This document shows, piece by piece, positions 20,860 to 42,240 of a stretch of 64,000 nt of DNA. Below the pieces are notes generated by a model, which saw only the letters and a program-made list of their open reading frames with translations, was not told the DNA's origin and did not search any database. Origin of the DNA: Pegea sp. RAD2-039 (taxonomy: Eukaryota; Chordata; Thaliacea; Salpida; Salpidae); the NCBI GenBank assembly GCA_034620365.1, contig JAQGEQ010000043.1, positions 310,001 to 374,000 of the forward strand, in the 5' to 3' direction. How positions within the stretch are numbered: the stretch's first letter is position 1; the number at the start of each line of letters is the position of its first letter. The translations under genes and the position numbers were made by a program.

Positions 20860-22515
20860 GGAAGAGAAAGTGCAGTCTTATCTTAACCTTGCAAAAAATG
20901 TTTTTTTTTTTCGCTTCATAAATCACAGGCTTAAGGCGAGATCTCAATTACCTCCCTTACTTGATAACACAGACCAGCTTGTGATGGAACCAGAAAATAA
21001 AGCTGAATTGCTAAGCAAACAATTTAATAGCGTTTTTATAACCGACGGTGGCAATACTCCTTCTCTCTCCTGCTCCGACATTCTTACAAATGTCTCTGAA
21101 ATGGTAGATCTTGACATAACTGTCGATATAGTATCTAAATCAATTTCTTCTTTAAAACCATCAGTTTCCAACACCCCAGATCAGATTCCAGCTTTATTTT
21201 TAAGAAAAACTACTTCCTCTTTATCACTACCTCTATCGCTACTCTTTAACATGACTCTTAGGTGAGGAAGAGTTCCACAAATTTGGAAGAAAGCTATTAT
21301 TACTTGAATCCATAAAAAGGGTCCCAGAAACACTGCACTTAACTACAGACCAGTTTCGCTGACTTCAGTTATCTGCAGAACTGAAGAGCATATTATTCAC
21401 AATCATAAGACCAGTCATTTCATGGAGCACCATCTAGTATCTGATGTCCGACATTGCTTTGTGAAACGGAAATCGTTCCTGTCTCAATATCTCACTTTTC
21501 CTAAGATATTATCTTGCAATCCTTCAAATATTCAGACTTCACTACAGGATGTAGATAACTGGTCTACGAATTGGCAGCTCACAATCCAACCCACAAAATC
21601 TGAACTTATAACTTTCTCCAGTAAACCAGCTGCAAATTCCTTCAACCAATATTCCATCAATGGATTTATTATTCTACGAATATCTTCGGTTCTAGACCTT
21701 GGCATTACCCTATCATCTGACTTTAAATGGCACAGTTATGTTTCTAAAATTTTTCAAAATCAATCAACCTTGTCTACCTTAATATAAAGATCTTTAATTC
21801 TAAGGATCCATTCTTTTTTATCAATCTTTTCAAATTGTACGTACGTCCAATTCTTGAATACAATGTCAATGCATGGATGCCATATCAAGTTGGTGATAAC
21901 AAAAAAAATCGAATCTGTTCAGGCCATATTTACGAGATTGGCATGCAGGAAACTTAATATTAAATATGATAGCTATAAACATCCTCTCAGCTTCTTCAAT
22001 TTAGGTACTTTGGAAATCAGACAAATTAAATACAATTTAATTCTTATTTTTAAAAGTATCAACAATTTAATTGACCTTCAGTTTGATGACTTCTTTTTCA
22101 TTAGTCCTTCCCTCAAGTTATACCAACTCAGACGGCATACATCTTAATAAGCCTATATCACCTGGTACATTAATCAGATTGAATTTTTTCTCATACCGCA
22201 CAGTTAGTACATGGAACCAGCTGCCATTAGACACTATCATGTCAAAATCACTCGCGTTGTTCAAGCAGAAGTTGAACCGTTATATTGCCAACATTGCCAT
22301 ATCTAAACTGCGAATTTTTCCATTTTTATTATTACTATAATTCTATGTGAATGTTCACTGTTACATGTTTTGAGGACTACCGAAATGCCATGTGTTACAT
22401 CTTTTGCTTTTTATATTTCTAACATAAGAGATGTGATTTGAGAGAATGTGTGTTAGCGAGAAGTGCTCTTTTCAGGCATCCTCTTTCACCTTTATTATAA
22501 TAAATAAATAAATTA
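20860..22515 (+). mobile_element. Decayed CR1-like LINE, copy B, with internal deletion
   Basis: Conceptual translation shows a non-LTR retrotransposon polymerase ORF in pieces. The region before the reverse transcriptase is at 20870-21265 (FRFINHRLKAR near its start). Fingers motifs KKAIIT and NYRPVSLTSVICRT lie at about 21280-21380, interrupted by stops. Then come LVSDVRHCFVKRKSF, a jump to the post-catalytic segment (NWQLTIQPTKSELITF), and the C-terminal RLACRKLNIKY and TVSTWNQLPLD blocks typical of the CR1/Jockey group. The catalytic palm with YxDD is missing, so roughly a hundred residues or more were deleted. The 3' end has AGTGCTCTTTTCAGGCATCC followed by a TAAA-type tail at about 22495-22515. 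It is a non-functional fossil downstream of THSD7. Confidence 0.88.
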
Positions 22516-25973: not shown

Positions 25974-28900
25974 CTAGCCCCGTAAAATAGTAATTGATGC
26001 ATCTTCATAAACGTTTCCATTCTTCTTCTGATCTTCATCAATCTCTGAAGATTTTATCATCTCAGATCTCTCATCAATTTTTGCCACACTATGATTGATG
26101 TAACTAACATTGTCTGTACATATTTGTTGTGTAAGGTTTTCTTCTGAGTTTAGCTCTGTGTTCGAGTTCAATAAGCTTACTGGTAAATTATTCTTTGGTT
26201 TATCTGAAAACCAAAAAGTAAAAATGAATAAACTGAAGGAATTTATTTGAGCTTGTCTCTGTAAAGTACGACGGACAGGGGCTCAACTATCTTTTTCAGT
26301 TTTTAAGCTATCATTATAAGCAAATAATAAAATGAATTCAGTCAGTTTTTCACAAAACAGTAATTTGATAATTGTTCCAAAATACTTTCATCCATTTAAT
26401 TCTGCCAACTTGTGACTTTTATAAATTAAAAAGTAGAAGGTTAAGTAAGATTAATTTCTTAACCGACCAAACAATTTGATCAATTTTGTAAATTTTTTCT
26501 AACTTAATAAAAAAGCTCATTAATCAGCTGGGCAAGTAAAAAAACAAATTTTACTTTTTGGTGAAACCATCAGATGAGGAAATTTGATTTTGTTGAGAAC
26601 AAAATCAGAAAGAAGAACTCGATTAGGATTTGAGGCAGCTGTGGAATCAACTGTTATAGGAAACTTATGATGAAATTGAAGCATTTTATTGACAGAAAAA
26701 AAGTTTTTGTTATTAACTCTACATCTTCCTTCGACATCAACTGTAAGTCTTTGATGCTGAAAAAAAAAGTCTCTCATCAACGCTCAACTAAGTAAGAAGA
26801 TCAAAAAGCGCCGGAAGAGAAATTAACAGATTGATGGAGTCGACTTGAAGCTCAAAATTATTTGATTGAATTTCAAAACAAAAAGGTTTTTAAAATTAAA
26901 AAAAAAAAAAGGATTTTATTGAAGTTCCATCACGTGACAGTTATGTGTTGAATATTGAGATGAAATTGAAACTAACAGGTTAAGTTACTGCAACTGAAAT
27001 AAGTAAACTTTAGGCAGAAAAAAAATTCTAAAAATATCAGCTAAAAATAGATCTCAACCCCAACAGTTGACATATGATAAAGTGATTGACAAAATATATA
27101 TTTACTTTTGCTTTTCCGTGGTAGCTAAAAGTTATAGCAAAACAGCGTTGATTTGCAGAATAACGAAGAAGAAATACTCCATTCTTCAAGTTAGCGATCA
27201 GTAAAGATGCATTACTTCGCGATAAGTTTCCATGAAACCATGGATACACAGAAAGATGCTCTCGATTTACGACTACACTTTCAACTACACTGCAGCAGTC
27301 GGTGACTGTTTCTGTGCTGTCAGTAGTTGATGAGAGAGAACTGCAGCCTGTAGAAGAGGATTCGTGGCTGTCTCGTCTGTCTGCTTCATCGTCAAACATC
27401 GGGAAAATATTCTCCCATTTGGCAACTAACAAAGCAAAAAAAAAATTGTATTCAAATGTATTTTGGGGATTTCAATTTGGATCAAAGTATTTAAAGCATA
27501 AAAAATAAATTTTTTTGAATGTTAAATAAGATAAAATTACTAAAAAATTCAATTATAGATTTGTAATAAAATCATAAAAAGAATTAGTTGGTAAAAACGT
27601 AATCATCACAAGAAAATGAAGTAAAAACGCTAGAGTGATAAATGTGGCTGCAAACGCCGTCTGCTTCTACGTGATGAGAATTTGTATTGGTAATGTGGAA
27701 ACAAGATTCAGATACAAAGTAAGTTCCTATACAGTCTACTTGCCGCCATTAAATACAAACAAACAAAGAGACTTGCTTAAACGTTAAGCTTAAGCAGTCT
27801 AGTAACTATTGAATCGACAAAAACTATTAAACTTAAAAATTGATGAATTGTGAATGAAGTAGTCCACAAAAAGCGAACTTCTCTAGCTTATATCGGTTAG
27901 TTTGTTACGTTTTGTGCTACTTTTCAAGAAACTTGAAATGAGATAATTTAAGGCAGTCTTATCTGCTGATATATTTGTCAATTTATTGACTTATCCTTAT
28001 AATTGAACTTTTTATTAGCAGCAATGAAATAAATTTGTTCTTATCATTAAACTTTTCAGCTTTTTGTGAAAAAATCTTATTCTGCAGTATTTTAGTTCCG
28101 AAAAATTTTAGCATCCTTTTAAATTTAAATTTTTCTGAAACTTAATGAGCAAACTGGTAATAAAAACTAGATTGATAAGAAATATTCCCCCCAACATATT
28201 CCAACTGAAACAAAAAGGTTTTTACAGATATCATTTGGTCACTTTTATCAATCTTAAATATAAAAACTTCAAATCTTCTTTAACTACCTTCATTCATAAA
28301 TTTATCAATTTTGATGATTTATAAAATTTGTTGAAATATAATAGAAAAGCAATTACCAAAAGATGAATGATTGAAGTTAATACTTTCATCAAATGATCGA
28401 TTCTCTATTAATGTACTTTCATTTTCTTGGTGATTATGAAATGATCTTCTATTCTGAAGCAAAATATTAAAGTATGGATTAAAATAATCTGAAATAGAAG
28501 AATTATTTGATGCAGGCTGTCGAGGTTTTGTAAACTTTTTTAGGCAAATTAAATAGCTGACAGGAAAACCATTATTAGCTGAAAAGAAGTTTTCGAACAA
28601 ACTTTATTTATCTAAAAGCAAAATTTGTAAAATCGCTTTAAGAATTTTCAATCACATTTAGAGTTAAAATAAAATATTTATAACTGCTTGCCACCCAGAA
28701 TAGAGAAATCAATTATACTAAAGTCAGATTTTTGAAAAAATAAAACAAATAGTAGTAAAAATGTACATTCAAAATTGATGACACAAACTGCCAAGCATCA
28801 GAAAAGTTAATATTGAACAGACTTCTTTATAGAAACAAGCCACAAAAGGATTGTTGAAAAGACCTACAAAGTTAGGTTTGCTACTACTACAAACTTGTTA

Positions 28901-31900
28901 AATAATTTGAGGTTTTTGAAAATTATTTTCATTCAGTAGAAATTCTGATCAACATTAAAAACAATGAAGAGATAAAGACAGCAATCTGTTTTCAATTAAG
29001 AGCTAAGATGGCAGATATCTCAGTAAATTACTGTTTAGTGATTAGAAAAATGAAAAATATTGAAACATTAAACAGTTAGGTCGATGTCAAAGGCCTTAAG
29101 TAGTGTGACCAAAAAATATTTTAAAAATGTGGCAGCTTAACATCAACTTTCAAAATTACATTATTTAAAAAGCAATTTTCCACTTTTAAAATCTTTATTT
29201 TAATCCTATCAAAACTCAAACCAATTTTTTTTAAAGCTCACAAAAATCTGCATTAATCAAAGTTTAATAAGATTTAAACCAATTTCATTTACACTTGATG
29301 GAATATTGAAGCAAGTATGAGGTTTTCGAGGGATTAGTTTGCACATTGACTAATTTAGACTGTGATAAAGTACTTTATGTTTTCTTGTTGATAAAATTAC
29401 TTCAAATGACTGTTGATTGTTCATTTCAGTTTGTTGGCAACTTTCTTCATTCTTTAGAACTTCTGGAATGTAAGGATGTTTGTAGCATTCATAAATTTGC
29501 GAGCTAGAAAGTACAAAAAGAAATTTAGCATGGAAATAAATAAACCATCTGCAAAGAAGTGTAGTTGTGAAAGCAACTTTGCATAAAATAAGAATGAAAT
29601 CATTTTATTTAAATGAATAAAAAGAATAAAAGATTAATAGTTGATTAAGATACAATTTTTTTTTTAATTTTCTGATTACTTTCGATATTTTAAACTATTT
29701 TTTCACAACAACTTCTAATTACAGTCAATTTACAGAAGAAGGAATGTTTAAAAGTTTCGACTAATGATTTAAAGGTGACCAAGTGTAAATTTAAGTTTTT
29801 AATTTTGTAACTTTTAGTTAAACTCTGTTATTTTAATCACAACTGTTTTCATTTGCAACAAACGTGACTTTTCTAAATCAATTCTAACATCAGAAAATAT
29901 AAAAATATAAACAATTGTATGTACTGTGTATTTCCAGATCTTATATTTGCATCGTCTATTTCTGTAATCCAAACCAATACATCATATCTTGAAGTAAACT
30001 TGATAACAAATTCATGATTTATAGACTGAAAGAGAAAGATGATCTTCAAAAAAGTTTGAACACACAAAATTTAAATGAAAAATATAATTTAGTAACAAAA
30101 GTCGTGATGAAGAATATTATAAAACAACTTCTGAGGTAATATTGGTGAGAAATCATTTCTTAAAATAAAAAAAAATATTGAAAATCAAATTGCAAATATC
30201 TGTTTGGTTAAACGCTTTGTTTGATTTTGCTCAATACAAACCAGCAGAAAGCTAAAAATAAATTTTATTCATTTCTATGTGGTTTTTGGTGTTATAATCA
30301 CTGAAGAAAAACGATGACTAGAAAGCATAGTTGCTTACAAACTGAATGAAATAAAATTGGGTCTTATGAATGTAAAATAAATGTTCATTTTAAATAGAAT
30401 AAATTTGTAAATTCTTTTGATGGTTATATACCACTGAAAGTGCTGTTTAAATTGAAATGTTATCTTTCTTATCAGAAAAATCGACAAATTGAAGCAAATT
30501 TAAAACTAATACTTAGAATACTATTTATTATGACTAGTAGGTAATTTACAAAATACTTTTTGTTGCACAAGTAGCATCTTTGACTAGTCAGCAAGAAGTT
30601 GATTTTAGCATTAATTGAACAACTTTCATATTTTAAAATGACTATTTTAAATTAAGTGACATTTTAAGTTTGATATTATATAATTTTTTGACATCTAATT
30701 CTGATGTTCAGGTTGTAGATCATTGGCATTGAATAAATAAAGAAGAGTATTTTTGTTGCGCAAAGACAGTTTTTTACACATCTAAAATCCCGTGGTAAAT
30801 AATAAAAGTAAATCTGATAAACTAACTAAAAAAGAGGTTTATCTGCCAAAAACATCATTTTATTGACTAGATTAAATTTGCTCTAAATACTTTAGAACAT
30901 TTTGAAGTAATAAAAACCTTGAGAACAAAGCAGCAATCAGATTCTTGAATTCTTGCTGCCTCCACAGGTCTTACTTGAAGAACTTCAAAACCATGAATTA
31001 CATGTTTAGGTCGAGAGCTCTGTAAAAACCACATAAATAGGTTTAAATTACATCAATTAGCACATTTCAATAAAAATAAAAACCAACTTTTATTGGAGAG
31101 TAGATTTCCAATTGATAGATATCAGAATTTGTTCTTAACAAGATTTTAGCTTTGAAAAACGGACTGATATTATGAGTGTCGGTACTAGATCTGGCTCGAT
31201 ATTCACAAATTTCTTCTAATTTCACCAAACCATCACTACTAGTATCCTGTAAACAGTTTTGTTATAATTACAATTCAGATACAGTTTAAATTTATCAAGA
31301 ATTAGTTAGAAAAATTATGTTTACTGAAATTTACAACGAAAGTTCAATCAAAGAACTAGACAAACCTTTACAAGTTTTGGTGCATGGCTGCTCTTACGAA
31401 ATCTGTTCCTAACTAGAGAAGATATCTTTCCAAATTTACTGCAACTACTATGATCAAAACAAGTATCTTTTTCCACATCTGCCCAACCTTTATCATGTTT
31501 ACCAACTCTTTTTTTGTTATATCTTGCTAAATTTATTTTCTTTTTATTATAAAATTCTAAATCGCTGTTAACATTGCATAAATCTTTTTCTTTGTAAAAA
31601 ACATTATCGTCTATACTCAACTTTCTGGATAAATATTTATTAGAACTGCCACTAATGTTTTCATTACTAGGTGAATCAAACTGATCTTCTTCTAGTTCAA
31701 AAGTTGATATATAATTAAAATGATTGTCAAAACTAAAACGATTTCTTTTAATTATTTGATGAGCTTCAGATATCACTTCCGATTGACAATTTTCTTGTAA
31801 GATCAGATTGAGTCCAGAATAAAATACACTTTTAAATAATTCGATATAATACTCGCAGATGATATGCAGCATACCAGACTCACATTGAACAAACTGATAT

Positions 31901-32064
31901 TGTTCAAAATACTTGTGTAAGGCAAACAATAGGTGATTGGCATTATCATTCGCCTGCTTAGAATAAATTTGGCGGAGATTTTCGTTCTTAAGCACGGTTG
32001 TTTCCCACTTTTGTTTAGAGCCAGCAACAACAGTTGAAACAGGTGGAACATTTACAAATGACAT
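25974..32064 (-). CDS. SH2B1: SH2B/Lnk family adaptor protein (Phe-zipper, PH, SH2), nine exons
   Basis: This is a cytoplasmic signalling adaptor; in animals the family binds activated JAK2, insulin and other receptor kinases through SH2. Exons (minus strand): 32064-31366, 31246-31088, 31019-30918, 30025-29925, 29503-29361, 28578-28357, 27425-27106, 26756-26555, 26203-25974. Together they give 2178 nt (725 aa plus stop) with matching phases. Residues about 15-75 resemble the Phe-zipper dimerisation region. A PH domain spans exons 2-4 (about 234-345; motifs KAKILLRTNSDIYQLEIY and FVLK). The SH2 domain runs from YPWFHGNLSR at 536 with FLLRYS, whose Arg563 is the phosphotyrosine-binding residue, to about 640. 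The C-terminal tail contains a lone VYED tyrosine. The exon 5 to 6 junction is the weakest: it needs a GTCTAA donor. Reading through the exon 8 donor gives a stop at 26520, an alternative C-terminus. The invertebrate gene is expected to be co-orthologous to SH2B1, SH2B2 and SH2B3. Introns of 300-930 bp hold nothing else except the possible exon at 27726-27610. Confidence 0.88.
27610..27726 (-). other. SH2B1: Possible in-frame cassette exon of SH2B
   Basis: Inside the 930 bp intron between exons 6 and 7 there is an open segment of higher GC. It is bounded by TATAG (acceptor) and a GTGATG donor. It is 117 nt long and enters and leaves in phase 1, exactly what its neighbours need, so inclusion would add 39 residues rich in Ser, His and Cys ahead of the SH2 domain. 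The acceptor lacks a good pyrimidine tract, which argues for optional use or for chance. Confidence 0.4.
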
Positions 32065-34576
32065 TTTTCAGTTTTTCTGAAAGATTTCTTATGACTAAAA
32101 CGTTATTTCTAGCATAGAATTGTGTCTGTAAAACACAAAATTAAAAGTAAACACATTGTATAACTTTATTGTGGTAAATAAAAAAAGTTATAAGAATGTG
32201 TACTGTTGTTATAGGGATAAGTCAGGCTTTGTTGAAATTTTAGAAAACAGAATGTAAATATCTTACTAAAACTTCAACTGATATCAATATTAATCAATAT
32301 TAATAAACATTCTTATTTCATAAATAAATAATCTGTAATTACGATATCTAATTATGTATTAATTTTGCTCATTTAAAATATAACTAGCTAAAATTTAAAT
32401 GTTTATAGTATATTACCAAGTTTTTTGCATTTATAAGCTTTTAAACAATTTATTAAAGTTTTTTAACTATATTCAAAAAAAAGTTGACACTAAAGAAATG
32501 TTTTCAAACTTTTGCCTATAAAAGACTTCAAGTGAGCTTTATTGATATTAAAGAGGAAAACTTGCTTTTAATTGCAGATTCTGCTACATGCAGAAGACAA
32601 CAAAGCACTTTTATTGATTAAAGCAAAATATATGTCTGAAAAAATATATTAACAAATTGAATATTTTAATAGGAAAAATCTTAGATACTTAAATAATTAA
32701 AATTATTTATAATTATCTAATTAGCAAAATATTAAGAGTGTGTGGGTAGTATAAGTAGTAAACAAATATATATTGTATATGGAAACCAGTCTACCTTTTT
32801 CAAGTAATAAAATCAAGAAGAAACAACTGCAAATAAAAAAGCTATTTTTAAAAAAGACATCCATTAAAAAATGACTTTCTTAGTAAAATTACTCTAGCTA
32901 TAAGGAGAGTATATCACTAATAGCTATACAATCTAATTTAACAAATGTTAAGCTAATAATAAAAATGTAACCAAAGTAACATTTTTTTAATTTGTCATAA
33001 AACTGATGAAGTTCATTTCAGTTATTACTTTTTATCAAAAATTAAAACATAGTTAAAATTGAAAAGTAGTTTTAATTTGGTCGATCACCTTAAAAAATAA
33101 TTAAATAAGAAAAAGAATTAAAGGTAGAACATTAGGGCTTAGATAAACCCTGTACAAAATGTTAGTCAAACCATTAGAATTGAATAATATTTCATTTACA
33201 AATTATAATATTTGTAAAATAATATTTTTATAATTAATAGTGAGCACAAGCTAGATTATATGAAATCTTTTTATTAATAATATAATACTTTTAAAATATT
33301 TTGGTATACCTATAAAACTGACTTGATCACTATTAATGCAATTACAAAATTTAATTCAATAATTGTAGCTACATATAATGGTGTAAGAATGTAACTAATA
33401 AATAAATGGAACCTCTAACATTAAATAGTTTAGTTATTAATAGTGATATAAAGCAATCAAAGTATAATAACAATAATTAAATAGCATGATAATTAGTTTA
33501 CTTACCTAATAAACCAAACTTCAAATATTTATTTCAAAAACTGATTATTTAATAGATTTTAAGATTCCTTAGTTTATTAAATTAATTAACATTTATTAAT
33601 TTAATTACTGAGTGATAAATAGAAATATTCAATTATCACACAAATTTTATCTCAATAAAACTTAATTTATGAACTATATTGAATAATAAGCTTCTTATTG
33701 ATTAAATTTAATCAATCTATAACTGCAATTAGTATAAGCATAGTAAAATACTAATCTTAGGTTTTAATTGTTATGACAGGAAACATATTTTGTATGAATA
33801 CAAATTACTGTTTTAAAGTAAACAAAATATTTTTTTAATAGCAAACTATTTAAAAAATTATAATCCATCAAAAAAATCTTAAAACTAAAGAAATTTTGGC
33901 ACGCTTACCACCATAGAAAATTCTAACTAAGTTATGAAAAGATAAAATACACTTCTTAAATAAATAAGTTCAAAGAATAAAAAGTATATTCATTAAAAAA
34001 GATAATAACTATTAAAAATAGCCTTAAAATATATAAAATGAAAACGAAACTATGAAAATAAATGTTTGAATAAAATACAAAAATTAATAATAGGGATTAT
34101 TAGACACCATACCACATGTGCAAACATTGCTAATATAATGAAAGCTGACTAAGTAATAGAAAGCTCATGTTTCAAAGTAAAAACATTTGCAACAAAATGC
34201 TCCAAACAATTTGGAGTCGGAAAAAAATATATTTGCGGCGAATAGAGTTTTACTTATTTGGATAAGAACTAAAAGTTGAACTTATTTAGGTGATTATATG
34301 ATAAAAATACTGATTGTGATAAATTATTGGAAATTATAATAATAGTTCAATTAAAAAAACCTGATTTAAAGACAAAGAAACCTTATTTGAAACACAAACT
34401 TATTTGAATATATTTCTGTGTCAAAACTTATTTCTAGTAAGAATATGCTTTCTAAAAAAGTAGTGAAATATTAAGTACCAAGGAAATCGTTAATAATAAG
34501 TTTATTGAAATTTAAGTAGAAGTAAGTGTAGGTAGTATCGTAAATTATTCTAAACTTACATTAGAAAATTTAGCGT
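32065..34576. other. AT-rich intergenic region upstream of SH2B
   Basis: The SH2B promoter and 5' UTR are expected next to 32065. The remainder is very AT-rich, with no exon, RNA gene or clear repeat that I can support. Confidence 0.6.
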
Positions 34577-35329: not shown

Positions 35330-35640
35330 CTAAATACTATTTCCCCTAACTTATAATAAGACTGTTGTAAGATGTATGCTAGCCTCATGCATACGTATTA
35401 GCTTCAATTATAGTGGAGAGTAGCATACGCTGAAGGATTCCCACTCTTTAAATTTGCTGTCCAGTGACACGGTCAAGTGACCAGGGACAGTGATATTAAG
35501 GTCAGTAGATTGTAGAAGATACTTTCCGCACATATTAGATGGCGAAATGATTTTTGATGAAAGTGGGATTTGAACCCACATATCATAGATTATCAGCCAA
35601 TAGACTTAACCGCTAGTTCATCTCGTACTATCCCATTGTT
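35330..35640 (-). mobile_element. tRNA-Ser-derived SINE, copy 1
   Basis: On the minus strand a tRNA-like head (35622-35556) is followed by a tRNA-unrelated body. The body contains GCGGAAAGTATCTT, AATATCACTGTCCCTGGTCAC and ACTATAAT..CTAATACGTATGCATGAG, all of which have counterparts in the same order in copy 2 at 41864-42240. Copy 1 lacks about 100 bp present in copy 2 between the first two blocks. The 3' limit is uncertain. Confidence 0.78.
35556..35622 (-). pseudogene. tRNA-Ser-like SINE head (pol III promoter relic)
   Basis: It has a near-complete acceptor stem (GATGAAC with TTTCATC, six of seven pairs), GCGGTTAAG in the D region, and an anticodon loop CTGATAA that would be CTGCTAA in tRNA-Ser(GCU). 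The T arm is perfect, GTGGG TTCAAAT CCCAC, containing the B box GGTTCAAATCC. It is only 67 nt, with a shortened D arm and no long variable arm, so it is not a working tRNA gene. Confidence 0.75.
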
Positions 35641-36103: not shown

Positions 36104-39100
36104 TTATAAGTTAAAAATATACTTAATATCATCTAAAGACAACGCTGTCTTCTTCTTATTTTCTGTTCTTGCTCCTTCCATACAGTCATGTGCTTCTTTT
36201 AATTTACGGTTTTGTAGCTACAATAAAAATTAAAACTACAGTTTTAATGCAACGACTAATTTATTTCTAATGTTGATTGCTAATAATACAATAACTATAA
36301 AAATATTACAATGTTATTCAATGCAATAGTTTTAATTTTCAATATTGCACCTTCAAAATTGATTCTTCAATTGTATTCTTCACAATAAACTTGTGAATGT
36401 AAACGTCTTTTTGTTGTCCAACTCGATAAATACGATCGCAAGCCTGATTGTAAAAAGTTGTTAATTCCAATTAACATAATCATTGGGCGAAAATATTTCA
36501 CAAAATCGGATTGATATAATGACCTGTTTTTCAAGAGCAGGGTTCCAGTGCATATCTATCATCACTAAATGATTAGCTCCAATCAAGTTTAAGCCAACGC
36601 CCCCAGCTTTTAGTGAAACTAACAAAACCTACAAATATGAGTTATTTTTTTGTAAAATTAAATCAATATTAAAAAGTACCTGTAACCGGGTAGGGTCATT
36701 GTTAAATGTTGTAACTGTCTGTAATCTTTTACTCGATGACATTTTACCACAAATTGTTTCATGACTGATTACTTCTTGGTTCAAATAACAATGAACAATG
36801 TCAAGAAAAGAGGTCCACTGACTTACTACTACGCATTTTTCACCGTTTGCACTATACGAATGTGTAAGAAGTTATTTACATCAAATGATAATAATGTTCT
36901 TACCAAATATCTTTCAGTAGTTCTGCTAAGAGTTTAACTTTGCTGCTTAAAAAACTTTTCTCAAAGTATTTTGAGTTTAAATCACAACTCTTTCGTGTCA
37001 AATCTTCAATTGCTGCATCTATTTAAACAATTAGTCAGTAGCTGACTTATATCATAATGTTCTAACCCTTGTCTTTTAATGACAACAAATTAAAACAGTC
37101 TTCAATTGAAAACACTGATGAACTTTCCTCTTCTAGTATAGATGGTTCAATAACGTTGGTGAGTAGATGAAGATGACAACAACATTGCCTTAATCTAAAC
37201 GAAAGTTATACAAACAAAGTAAATACTTCGAAAATAATAAGTTGACAGTTCAATTATTAATAATTATTAGTATTACAGTGTAAATGCAACTGAATATTTT
37301 GAAATTAATTTTTTTTTGTGTATTGATTTTATCCAAGAAAAGATTATGTAGTAACTTAAGTTTTCCAATAAAAATGTTGGTATTTTCAGAATCACAGATA
37401 TATGCTCTAATTTATAATTTTCAATCTTTTCAGCCAAATATACCAATGATTACATTTAAGCATCACATGATCAAGTAACTCAATGGAATGTAAAGTCTAA
37501 AAATATTTATCAACTATTAACGATGATACCTGAGTAAAATTGTAAGAACACCTATCATATTTGTCTTGCCATTTCCACTTAAGCTTTTTTTGATAATGTT
37601 TTTGTATGCAACTAGGAGTTTAGTGTACACCTTAAAAGAATTTACAAAGCATTTTATAAGATGGCGAGACATGTGCAAAGAAAATTGAATACTTTCAACT
37701 CAACTTCACCCAGAGTAATTTCATGAAGTTTAAATACACGTTCGGGTAATTCAATAAGAGCTTTACCATCAATATCTTTTTGTTCTTTAGTTCTGTTAAA
37801 AATGAAAACAATTTAACAAATATTAAATTAAAGAGTCGATTTTATCTAAACCTTTGTAAAATAAAGCAGGAAACCAAAGTTTTGATCTTTTGGTTCCCTG
37901 TTATATCACCAGTAGCAATCTCCTTCATCCACAGATCGTGATTGTTAAATGGATGACAATTCAAAAACTTTAACATTGCAAACAGATCTCCGATATTATT
38001 TTGAATTGGAGTTCCTATTTGTACATATTTCAGCACTTACTTTTTCATTCAAACTCTCACAAACCTGTAACAGCCCAACGGACTCTAGACTTTAAAGCAC
38101 AAACAGCTAACGACTTTTTAGTCGAAGTATTTTTTATCTCGTGGGCTTCATCCAGTATGACACGTCGCCAATTGATTTCAAACAGACAATTTTCTTTAGA
38201 AATTACACAAATTTAATATAAACATATCAAACTTGATTACAAAAAGTCAATTCAGAAGCAAAAGAAATTTAAATAATTGAAAGCAAATACCTGAGTTAGT
38301 CTTTTTTCCGTCACTAAAATAAGCATTTCGTACTATAGTAGAAAATATCAGTTGAAAATGAAAGCTAATTTTGTAATTAAGTTACCTAAATCATAAGTAG
38401 TGATGACGACATCAAAATCAACAAGTCTTTTTGCTCTTTTTTCTCGTTTAGAACCATGATAGACGTGAACAACTAAAGCTCCGGGTGAACAACTAAATAA
38501 ACATTTTTGTGAAAATTTGACATTTATATAACTTAGAAATTTTACACAGAAGTAAGTTGATCATTCTGAAACATACCGTTTATCTATTTCTGAACTCCAT
38601 TGATATATAACAGAGGCAGGGGCAACAACCAACGTTGCATCAGTATTCAGTAAAGTTCTTTGGTCTTCTTTTAATGAAGGTTCTATTTTATTTGAGTGTT
38701 GAAAGATTTTATCTAATAAAGGCTAAAAGAAAAAAAAGATTTACAAAATGGTAAAAAAAAACTTTAAAAATACCTTTTGATGCAGAATTAGAGCAATCAT
38801 GGTAATTGTTTTACCTAAACCCATGTCATCTGCTAATATTCCTCCACGGCAATCTACCTGACTCTCTCTCCAAGATAACCAACAAAGAGCCTGGCTTTGA
38901 TGTTTCATCAATTTTACCTTAAAAAACTCGTAATAATTAAACAAAAAGAAAGGTTAAGTGAAGTAAAACCCCAAATACCTACTTACAAGCAAATTTGGGG
39001 GATCAGCCACTTCTGAAGTAGGGTCCGGACAAGTTTTCAACAACTCATGTAACTTTTGAATAGCTTTATATGTAACCTTGAAATAATAATAATGATAAAG

Positions 39101-39826
39101 ATCTTACATCTGACAAACACAAAAGTTTACTTTTTCTTCAGCTGGCACCTGCTTCTTCTTTGAAGTTTTTTGTTCTTTCTTATTTCTGATGGAATCATTG
39201 ATATTGAGAGCTTTCAAAGCTTCATCAAATTCCAACTGAACTTTTTGTCGAGCTGTCATACGATTTTCTTCAGCAGTCTTCATTCTTGGTTGAGTTTCCG
39301 TTCTTATACCTTTAACTCTCTCTTGAAGATTTTTAATTTGTACATTTAACTTAAACCCTTTGTCAGGTAGTTTCGAAGTATCTAATGTTCTTAACAAATT
39401 TTCTTTCCTTTTAAGATCAGACTTCATTTTATCAACCAAGTTCAAATTTTCTTTATCAGTCCTCTTAAATTTTTTTTCTTTTTTCATAAATTCTGCATTA
39501 AAATGATTGTCTTCAGTAGATTTTCTGACATATACATCATACGCTAATGGTTGCCTATTAGTCTTTTGTAGCTTGACATCCAAAATTCTTCCCTTTTCAA
39601 CAGACAAATAGCCAGATTTATGAAGCTCTTTAATACTTAAAAATGCATCTGTAGGAGGAGTTGTCTCACATTGTATGAACCCATAACCTCTGGTGTTATC
39701 AAAAAATTTTACTGTAGCCATTACTGCTCCATCAGCAGGCTTACGTCTAGAAGAGGGTTTAACTCGTGAATGATGACTTGAACCTTCATCCCTATATTGT
39801 GTAAAGGAACATTTATTTGATGACAT
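36104..39826 (-). CDS. TTF2: TTF2/lodestar-type SNF2 ATPase with N-terminal cold-shock domain, 16 exons
   Basis: TTF2 is a dsDNA-dependent ATPase that removes RNA polymerase II from DNA, notably at mitosis. Exons (minus strand): 39826-39131, 39076-38987, 38917-38774, 38722-38577, 38492-38386, 38332-38291, 38193-38065, 38014-37852, 37792-37693, 37630-37530, 37194-37067, 37018-36904, 36851-36681, 36628-36524, 36443-36351, 36217-36104. My translation gives 814 aa. Residues 36-101 form a cold-shock domain. A lysine-rich coiled-coil follows, with the LPDKG-type segment seen in TTF2/lodestar, then the helicase. Walker A DDMGLGKT is at 292-299 and DEAH at 423-426. Motif III-like TGTPIQNN opens exon 8, and the C-terminal lobe has [14 protein letters not shown] and [12 protein letters not shown]. 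The GRF zinc finger of vertebrate TTF2 is absent. The ATG at 39826 lies seven open codons inside a possible acceptor (39850-39849), so an upstream exon may exist. Exon 13 counts one base short of frame by my coordinates. Confidence 0.9.
39524..39721 (-). other. TTF2: Cold-shock domain within TTF2 exon 1
   Basis: Residues 36-101 read as a nucleic-acid-binding beta-barrel: [15 protein letters not shown] carries RNP1 (GYGFI, 47-51), AFLSI at 61-65 occupies the RNP2 position, and GRILDVKL forms the later strands. It shares one exon with the coiled-coil that leads into the helicase, so it cannot be removed by exon skipping alone. Confidence 0.85.
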
Positions 39827-41863
39827 CTCAAATAAATCAGTCTTTTTTCTGTTACAATAAATTAAAAGTTAAAACAATTTTATTAAAAATAAATTGTGGA
39901 TTAATTGTTCATCAATAAATCATGATTTTAACGATTAACTCTATTTATTTGAAATGCATTTACTAAAGTTATATAAACAAAATAAGTGAAATTATTTTGA
40001 CATAAAAAATTAAAATCAAATTATTCAAATAAATAGAAACAATTTGAATTACAATAAACAACATTTTAAATTATCTTAGTATATACCAAACTTTATAAAA
40101 TATTTAATTTATATCAAAAGTTTTAGTTATAAAAACTTATGGTAGAAAATGAGCAATAAATTATCTTGATACAAAATAGCTTTAAGTATTTATTATGCTC
40201 TATTAATTCTATACAATCGATACATAAATAAAACCTATCATAATACTATATTTCAGTTTAAGGTCATTTTTATTATAGTAAAGACTAAGAAATTATATAT
40301 ACAATTTGCTATTATCATCATTAAATTATTTATAATGTAAACAAAATGTTTTTAACAATAATGAAATGAATAAGATCAGAATAGAGATAAAAAATAAATT
40401 AATTTTATCATTACGATTAAACTTGCAATTAAGTTAAAATGATCAAAACTTGCATGAAAATATGTTCAATCTAATAGACATAATTTATTACAAAGTAAAT
40501 TTAGATTTTCAAACAACTCATTAAAATAATAAATCAAAATAATAAAATAAAAAACCTAACACCAATAAAATATTTTGTATTGATTTAATTAAAATTATAC
40601 ATAAAGCTGTGAAACATGATTTGGAACAATAGTTAAATTTTTGAGCTGGAGAAAAATGGTGTTAAACGTAAATGGCCAAATCCAAGTGTCAGCTGCTAGA
40701 ATGCCGATTCGAGTATTTTTATATATTTACTCAACGAATATTTATTAGTTACATTCAACATAAAATGAATCTTTCAACCAACTGAAAATCCAGTATACAC
40801 CCATTGAACTTAACTGAACATGTTATGATATTTATTTTGTAGACCAATCCACAAACTATTTGCTGATTAACCCATTTTGTAATGTCTTATAAAGTATAGA
40901 AATGAAAACAATGTTTAACTGTTTTATTAATAGCTTTCTAAACTAAAATCTTTTTGTGTCTAAGCTAGAGGTCCACACTATTGTTGATAAATTTAGGTTT
41001 AACTTATATATCACTCGTTATAAAGTTAAATATAAATATGTAATAGCCTTGTATGATTTTAATAGGAGCATTCTCTAGTGTTTTACAAACACAAAGCCCT
41101 CAGTGATTTATGCATATACTTGTTATAATTAAGGCTTGTACAAGTTTTGTCGTTTTATATTAATATATGAAATACTATAGTATCTGCTTAGTAATAAAGT
41201 TAAAAATAAAATTTTTTGTTTTTGTTTATAACAGTACCTAAAGGCACTCTATTTTTTATATATATCTAACAAAAATCGTAGAACATACTCTTTTTAGAGC
41301 ATTAAATGAAAGTTTTGTAATTATCATTAGAATCATACAAACTTATTGAAACAAAAGTTTGAAATAAATATCTTTTTGAAATACTTAATAATAATTACTT
41401 GAACTAATTAGCAGAGTATTTTTTTATTTTTAAAACTAATTATTGCGTTATGGTTAAGTTTTAACTTTAGATAAAAAAATTATACAAAAATGATATTTGA
41501 CATTTAGATACTAAACTTTACGAAATATTACTTATGATAAATATTTAATTAAATTATGTTTTATAATTTATTGTTCCTTTTGCGTTTAATGTTTAAAATA
41601 ATGAGTTTAAATAAAAAAGTACTTTTTAAATCATACAGTGTTCCTAATGGTTCTAAATTAAAATTTTTGCTAAATTTTAAACTATAATGGATGCTTTGGT
41701 TTATATATCTAATGATAAATTTTAAGAACTTTTGCTATTGAAAAATTGTTAGCTAAGCTATATTAGATGTCATTTTCGAAAAAAATGATTGCTACAAACA
41801 AGCATTTGAGAAATAAATACTAAGTTGACATAAATGTAGTTTAATAAAGTAAAACCCATATAA
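39827..41863. other. AT-rich region upstream of TTF2
   Basis: The TTF2 promoter, and perhaps a further 5' exon, should be near 39850. The rest is AT-rich, with no supported exon. Confidence 0.55.
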
Positions 41864-42240
41864 GCGACGAGATTAACGAGGGTTAACTTGATTGGCTGCT
41901 AAACCCAGTTTGGCATACTTGAATATAGCATTCTATATTACACTACTAACTATAAACGCAGAAAGTATCTTTTCGAAGTAAGGGTAATTAGTGTACTTCT
42001 TTTGGTTGCTTCGGGAAAAGCAAAGGCTATGGGAGAAAATCAGACAGAAAACTTACAATCTGATGACCTCGATATCACTGTCCCAGGTCACTCCCCTGTG
42101 CCACCTACGATTGGATATAATGAGTAATTCAGCTCACACTGCTTTCTACTATAATCTAATCCCATGCGTAAACGAGAAAGAAGTATAGAAAGAAATTAGT
42201 AACCTTTCCTTCATTTACTGCTTCGGTCTTCAAAGTCAGC
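41864..42240 (+). mobile_element. tRNA-Ser(GCU)-derived SINE, copy 2
   Basis: The head GCGACGAG..GGTTAACTTGATTGGCTGCTAA keeps the tRNA-Ser(GCU) D region and anticodon loop (CTGCTAA), but its T arm is decayed. The body contains GCAGAAAGTATCTTTTCG, GATATCACTGTCCCAGGTCA and a 3' block TTCTACTATAATCTAATCCC. These blocks match copy 1 in the same order. The element is visibly richer in GC than its surroundings. A 65-codon open frame inside it (41991-42188) is not a gene. Confidence 0.75.

Follow-up and report, generated by a model that had tools for sequence, protein, structure and literature searches.

A TTF2/lodestar-type gene of the salp Pegea sp. that appears to encode a cold-shock domain at the position of the vertebrate zinc finger

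Introduction

Does a gene on contig JAQGEQ010000043.1 (contig C30) of the salp Pegea sp. RAD2-039 encode an ATPase of the TTF2/lodestar type with a cold-shock domain (CSD) at its N-terminus and, if so, how might such a protein differ in function from vertebrate TTF2? According to passages of a preprint, the two halves of vertebrate TTF2 have been reported to split their jobs, with the finger helping to unload replisomes via TRAIP and the ATPase evicting RNA polymerase II (PMC11623681, preprint). The N-terminus of the Xenopus protein (1167 aa) comprises a zinc finger (residues 1 to 94), a POLE2-binding motif (residues 120 to 125), and a long disordered stretch; in Xenopus extracts, the finger and the motif reportedly link POLE2 to TRAIP phosphorylated at T325, a function for which the ATPase is dispensable (PMC11623681, preprint). 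Eviction of RNA polymerase II in cells needs the ATPase, and the ATPase half is enough, according to the same passages (PMC11623681, preprint). These passages also state the conservation of TRAIP T325 for vertebrates, and the preprint's authors note that a direct contact between the finger and TRAIP was not demonstrated (PMC11623681).

A CSD at the end where the vertebrate protein has its zinc finger suggests that the motor can be steered differently. Such a gene also offers a natural way to ask two questions: is the replisome job of TTF2 ancestral or a later addition, and can RNA steer the release of polymerase? The window analyzed here is a stretch of 64,000 nucleotides (C30:310001-374000) with a GC content of 27.3%, from a genome of 105.7 Mb in 387 contigs. 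Positions below are those of the window unless a contig is named, and all features of the TTF2 gene lie on the minus strand.

Results

A single reading frame contains a CSD, the LPDKG motif, and an SNF2 ATPase

Using the TTF2 family as a guide, exon boundaries were set manually, and 16 exons (39826..36104) gave a single stop-free reading frame of 814 aa in which all 15 introns are GT-AG. Exon 1 (39131..39826) encodes residues 1 to 232, i.e., an N-terminal tail, the CSD, and a helical linker with LPDKG. The CSD (39530..39718, residues 37 to 99, with RNP1 GYGFI at residue 47) was recognized by Pfam (PF00313), by PDB matches to CSPs, and by a structural model with Foldseek. The LPDKG motif of TTF2/Gdown1 (39356..39370, residues 153 to 157) is exact and has no second copy in any of the six frames of the window; it sits downstream of the CSD in the same exon, with no intron between the two, and within a stretch predicted by AlphaFold2 to form a helical/coiled-coil linker (39167..39457, residues 124 to 220). 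The POLE2-binding motif of vertebrate-type TTF2 is basic and adjoins the finger; in the salp protein, basic patches are found near residues 20 to 31 and 115 to 128.

Intron 1 (39077..39130; 54 nt, GTAAAC...TTCAAG) couples exon 1 to exon 2 (38987..39076) in phase 0. Around this intron, 35 GT/GC-AG joins with introns of at least 40 nt keep the frame open; the chosen pair has the most ordinary signals by eye, and its acceptor is common to 9 of the 35 joins, the chosen one included. From the sequence, we infer that the CSD exon is spliced to the helicase exons in vivo. The conserved parts of the ATPase are encoded by exon 3 (38774..38917, Walker A DDMGLGKT), exons 4 and 5 (38577..38722 and 38386..38492, SNF2 lobe 1), exon 7 (38065..38193, DEAH motif), exon 8 (37852..38014, GTPIQNN, its first codon being shared across the exon 7 junction), exon 11 (37067..37194, RQCCCHL plus some of the stretch between the lobes, which has no RING), and exons 13 and 14 (36680..36851 and 36524..36628, helicase C lobe), while exon 16 (36104..36217) encodes the C-terminus and the stop. 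Exons 2, 6 (38291..38332), 9 (37693..37792), 10 (37530..37630), 12 (36904..37018), and 15 (36351..36443) were likewise placed manually between GT-AG signals. Searched with Pfam, the whole 814-aa protein matched the CSD at residues 37 to 99 (27.8 bits; cut-off 27), SNF2-rel_dom at 268 to 582 (234 bits), and Helicase_C at 642 to 755 (69 bits). The ATPase motifs are intact, with Walker A at residue 292, DEAH at 423, and motif VI at 746.

A preliminary description of this DNA had proposed a CSD in the first exon, an LPDKG segment in that same exon, and an in-phase splice into the helicase of a TTF2 protein. The open frame 39826-39131 with PF00313 above its cut-off, the exact LPDKG at residues 153 to 157, and the 54-nt, phase 0 GT-AG intron agree with this, as does the fusion itself, since one 814-aa frame holds CSD, SNF2-rel_dom, and Helicase_C. 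The TTF2 identity is upheld by the exact LPDKG and by a two-lobe SNF2 ATPase with no RING, as detailed below. Upstream of exon 1, a 3' splice site-like sequence, TTATTGTAACAG, ends 22 nt short of the start codon (39827-39860); it could mark an intron in the 5' untranslated region or be an acceptor for trans-splicing.

The ATPase is assigned to TTF2/lodestar

Drosophila lodestar, the founder of the subfamily, is an SNF2 ATPase of the Rad5/16-like group and, to our knowledge, has no CSD. Among sequences of solved structure, the nearest to the ATPase was Rad5 (PDB 6l8n, E 2.5e-79), a nearness that is expected from the place of lodestar in the Rad5/16-like group. Rad5 and HLTF, however, carry a HIRAN domain as well as an inter-lobe RING, and the absence of the RING separates TTF2/lodestar from them; vertebrate TTF2 has no RING insert. 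Neither feature of Rad5/HLTF was found here: Pfam detected no HIRAN domain in exon 1 or in the whole protein and no RING between the ATPase lobes, where the stretch of residues 583 to 641 contains two Cys and no His. The SNF2 ATPase and LPDKG are common to this protein and vertebrate TTF2 (Xenopus/human), and we take RQCCCHL, DMHWNP, and a C-terminal stretch to resemble human TTF2. Since LPDKG is present and both RING and HIRAN are missing, the gene is assigned, by motifs and Pfam, as a TTF2/lodestar orthologue. In passages of a study of these proteins, LPDKG is described as functionally critical and as the motif of TTF2 and Gdown1 that metazoan evolution has conserved most (PMC8887472).

A genome search with the ATPase gave 55 matches (58 candidates scored), of which 11 lie within the gene itself. 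The best other SNF2 match by E-value was 30% identical over residues 21 to 526, with shorter pieces reaching up to 52%, so that no second TTF2 copy was found among the 58 candidates scored genome-wide. As a separate observation, contigs C102 and C247 hold 27 of the 55 matches (17 and 10, respectively), all at the helicase-C end of the query and 17 of them with internal stops (maybe introns). These may represent an SNF2-like family that has expanded or is decaying and that is possibly mobile.

The CSD match is modest in score and coding in character

PF00313 scored 29.2 bits on the exon 1 piece and 31.6 bits in a six-frame search of the genome (cut-off 27). With scores of 27.8 to 31.6, only slightly above 27, we regard the match as real but modest. 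Across the 105.7 Mb in six frames, CSD matches were found at six places (10 candidates scored), and the five places other than the TTF2 gene make up three loci with the look of ordinary CSD genes, named by eye as Y-box type, CARHSP1 type, and UNR type (three exons). We also scored codon usage, with training on four other frames of the same genome, two of them SNF2 genes. The CSD scored +0.18 in frame, compared to +0.04 and +0.03 in the two alternative frames; the remainder of exon 1 reached +0.21 and the helicase exons +0.16. For 21 intergenic stretches that stay open over 50 codons or more, the mean was -0.19 and the maximum -0.04. Judged from the sequence, the CSD match is not due to chance.

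The predicted barrel retains most, though not all, of the compared binding positions

Folded by AlphaFold2 without an alignment, exon 1 alone left the CSD unfolded (block pLDDT 29 to 39) and gave linker helices at residues 124 to 147 and 154 to 220 (block pLDDT 56 to 91). With 28 bacterial/phage CSD rows, taken from 92 distinct sequences that had been fetched for likeness to CspB and 19 to 32% identical to the query CSD, the model had five strands and a pLDDT of 85.3. Foldseek returned 38 matches at E<=0.001 for this model, including the CSDs of CspA, YBX2, CspB, YB1, and Lin28, with TM-scores on the query of up to 0.76 among the 50 matches listed. The CSD sequence is therefore described as compatible with a five-stranded OB barrel; the model shows compatibility and is not independent proof, because the alignment itself leans to that fold.

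Aligned with CspB, the CSD is identical in 20 of 61 columns. We compared 12 contact-region positions, among which Lys7, Phe9, Lys13, Tyr15, and Asp25 of CspB were taken by us to belong to the contact region. Seven are identical (K7, F9, Y15, F17, D25, F27, and R56), three show conservative changes (W8 to F, K13 to R, and F38 to Y), and two are lost (H29 to S and F30 to I). Thus, the RNP1 aromatic motif GYGFI is present, while RNP2 reads DAFLSI instead of DVFVHF, with Phe27 kept and His29 and Phe30 replaced. The affinity of the CSD may be low, since its RNP2 is without His29 and Phe30. According to passages of published work, the binding sites of CSPs include Trp8, Phe17, Phe27, His29, Phe30, and Phe38, and YB-1 has Gln at positions 30 and 38 and hence is without those aromatics (PMC4493011); the mobility of Arg56 is described as essential for high affinity (PMC8417293).

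The CSD resembles bacterial CSPs most, with no confirmed relative in the collections scanned

The best PDB sequence match of the CSD was a bacterial CSP, the CspB mutant 1hz9 (E 2.5e-6), with weaker matches to Lin28 (17 bits) and YB-1 (15 bits). NCBIfam likewise put CSP models on top, with nine families at E<=1, all far under their cut-offs. CspA, CspB, and CspE are alike in the predicted barrel but are free-standing proteins of 65 to 70 aa with an intact RNP2. The animal CSD proteins (Y-box, Lin28, UNR/CSDE1, and CARHSP1) share the CSD fold and RNP1, with weaker sequence matches, and we know of no helicase in any of them.

We considered whether the CSD came from bacteria or viruses. Pattern scans of a genome-contig collection with the CSD (110 matches) and of a viral-contig collection with exon 1 (28 matches) gave no confirmed relative, and the CSP top scores were not taken as a sign of horizontal transfer, because CSPs lie near the family consensus. 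Recent copying from a CSD of the salp's own genome was not supported either: five own-genome CSD exon pieces, some of them shortened by introns, aligned to the CSD of the TTF2 gene over 5 to 18 columns, around RNP1 only, and one of the five aligned no better than shuffles. The nearest case in the literature searched was prokaryotic: CSD-like domains are found on McrB-type GTPases of CoCoNuT systems, according to a passage of PMC11090510.

No GRF finger was found in the protein or on its contig, and a TRAIP-like frame has no T-P dipeptide

Pfam found no GRF finger in the protein, and on contig C30 there was none even at E<=10 (six candidates scored; this search could overlook a finger that an intron interrupts). 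Genome-wide, GRF matches occurred at four places at E<=0.001 and at five at E<=10 among the six candidates scored, and the four were named by eye as TOP3A (two), APEX2, and ZCCHC4. In the preliminary description, the CSD stood in place of the GRF finger of vertebrate TTF2. Within the scope given, no finger was found, and "in place of" holds as a comparison with vertebrate TTF2. In contrast to the zinc finger N-terminus of the 1167-aa Xenopus protein, the 814-aa protein has a CSD and a short linker.

The genome was also searched with TRAIP, which gave 24 matches at E<=0.01. The best (E 7.2e-14, 40% identity over query residues 3 to 69; second-best E 1.6e-6) is a 424-aa frame on the minus strand (L034, G000:C35:411690-411896), taken as a putative TRAIP orthologue because no other frame matched a fragment of the human protein as well. 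This frame has four S-P and zero T-P dipeptides, counted in one frame to which extra exons could be added, and its ESPAP was likened by us to the CDK site near S295. The lack of T-P in this frame and the missing finger fit the view that the phospho-T325 contact of TRAIP is absent here. The absence of T-P may also be ancestral and not a linked loss, because conservation of T325 is stated for vertebrates.

Discussion

We favor the reading, at a probability of about 0.68, that the gene is a TTF2/lodestar orthologue with an N-terminal CSD in the place of GRF, in which release of RNA polymerase II is kept, the CSD binds single-stranded RNA or DNA, and the TRAIP contact is missing. The SNF2 ATPase would engage DNA while the LPDKG linker touches RNA polymerase II, and ATP-dependent release of polymerase and transcript would follow, as by TTF2 elsewhere. 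With the ATPase motifs and LPDKG intact, polymerase release should therefore be kept. The CSD would bind single-stranded RNA or DNA (the exiting transcript, the bubble, or an R-loop) with modest affinity and would help to bring the motor to transcription complexes or hold it there; by analogy with the CSD family, sensing of nascent RNA or of an open bubble, as put forward in the preliminary description, is plausible. Without the finger, phospho-TRAIP can probably not be bridged to the replisome in the vertebrate manner. We infer that the CSD binds nucleic acid, that the protein contacts and releases RNA polymerase II, and that a TRAIP contact is lacking. A bolder version, in which TTF2 of this lineage has swapped its replisome tether for an RNA/ssDNA-binding CSD that reads nascent RNA or the bubble and aims release at stalled or mitotic elongation complexes, with TRAIP, devoid of its T-P docking site, working without TTF2, seems to us doubtful.

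Another role for the domain was considered. It could be a structural or protein-binding OB barrel, without nucleic-acid binding, that attaches the enzyme to RNA polymerase II or to some other partner; the RNP2 change from DVFVHF to DAFLSI, by which two stacking side chains are gone, and the low score for a CSD would suit such a barrel. However, the RNP1 aromatics, Phe27, the aromatics at 8 and 38, Asp25, and Arg56 are all retained, and YB-1 binds RNA without aromatics at positions 30 and 38, as described in a passage of PMC4493011, so that we consider a non-binding barrel unlikely. The gene model bears on a different doubt, namely, that exon 1 belongs to a separate CSD/LPDKG protein of a Gdown1-like kind and that the helicase starts elsewhere. 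Read through beyond its donor, exon 1 runs into a stop at the ninth codon, and LPDKG is present in Gdown1 too (PMC8887472, in the passages cited above). Yet a single 54-nt in-phase intron is all that lies between exons 1 and 2, no minus-strand frame of more than 64 aa was found at 39.9 to 43.7 kb (short exons could escape), and a TTF2 without LPDKG would miss its most conserved motif. We regard two separate genes as very improbable.

How far the arrangement reaches beyond this salp is a further matter. The CSD-bearing TTF2 might be widespread in invertebrates and already annotated automatically, with the GRF form as a separate branch and nothing specific to this lineage; the short alignments with own-genome CSD pieces, over 5 to 18 columns only, would suit an old fusion. 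Against this, we recognized no paper on such a protein among those listed in a search of an open-access library, and a wide distribution appears to us somewhat unlikely, although automatic annotation may already carry the arrangement, which may be common in certain phyla. The remark in the preliminary description that the architecture was undescribed is in line with that search of open-access papers. The terms "cold shock domain" and "TTF2" co-occurred once each in two papers judged by title, one on glioblastoma and the other an expression study of sticklebacks.

Surroundings of the gene

The neighboring genes, which are of animal type, were named by eye as an SH2 adaptor, a protein with thrombospondin repeats, and an ankyrin/patatin protein. 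The first of these, at 27037-32067 on the minus strand, resembles an SH2B/Lnk-type adaptor and has an SH2 domain. Broken frames at 20861-22147 on the plus strand resemble, by eye, the reverse transcriptase of a non-LTR retrotransposon. Searches turned up no COX1 and, with up to one mismatch allowed, no nematode SL1. A single-frame HDAC8 is nearest, among the 60 of 66 matches listed, to HDAC8 entries of the PDB that we take to be human and not schistosome. Elsewhere in the genome, the 18S-bearing places at G000:C1:6131841, C125:283894, and C278:8943 differ from the copy on C27 at the same two pattern bases. Two loci among the 18S-bearing places, L032 and L033, hold incomplete and altered stretches of rDNA, and their surroundings differ. 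On either side of the TTF2 gene, similar words were seen by eye in 35400-35640 (minus strand) and 41900-42200; a tRNA match at 35555-35627 falls inside the former, and the two stretches are a possible tRNA-derived SINE-like repeat.
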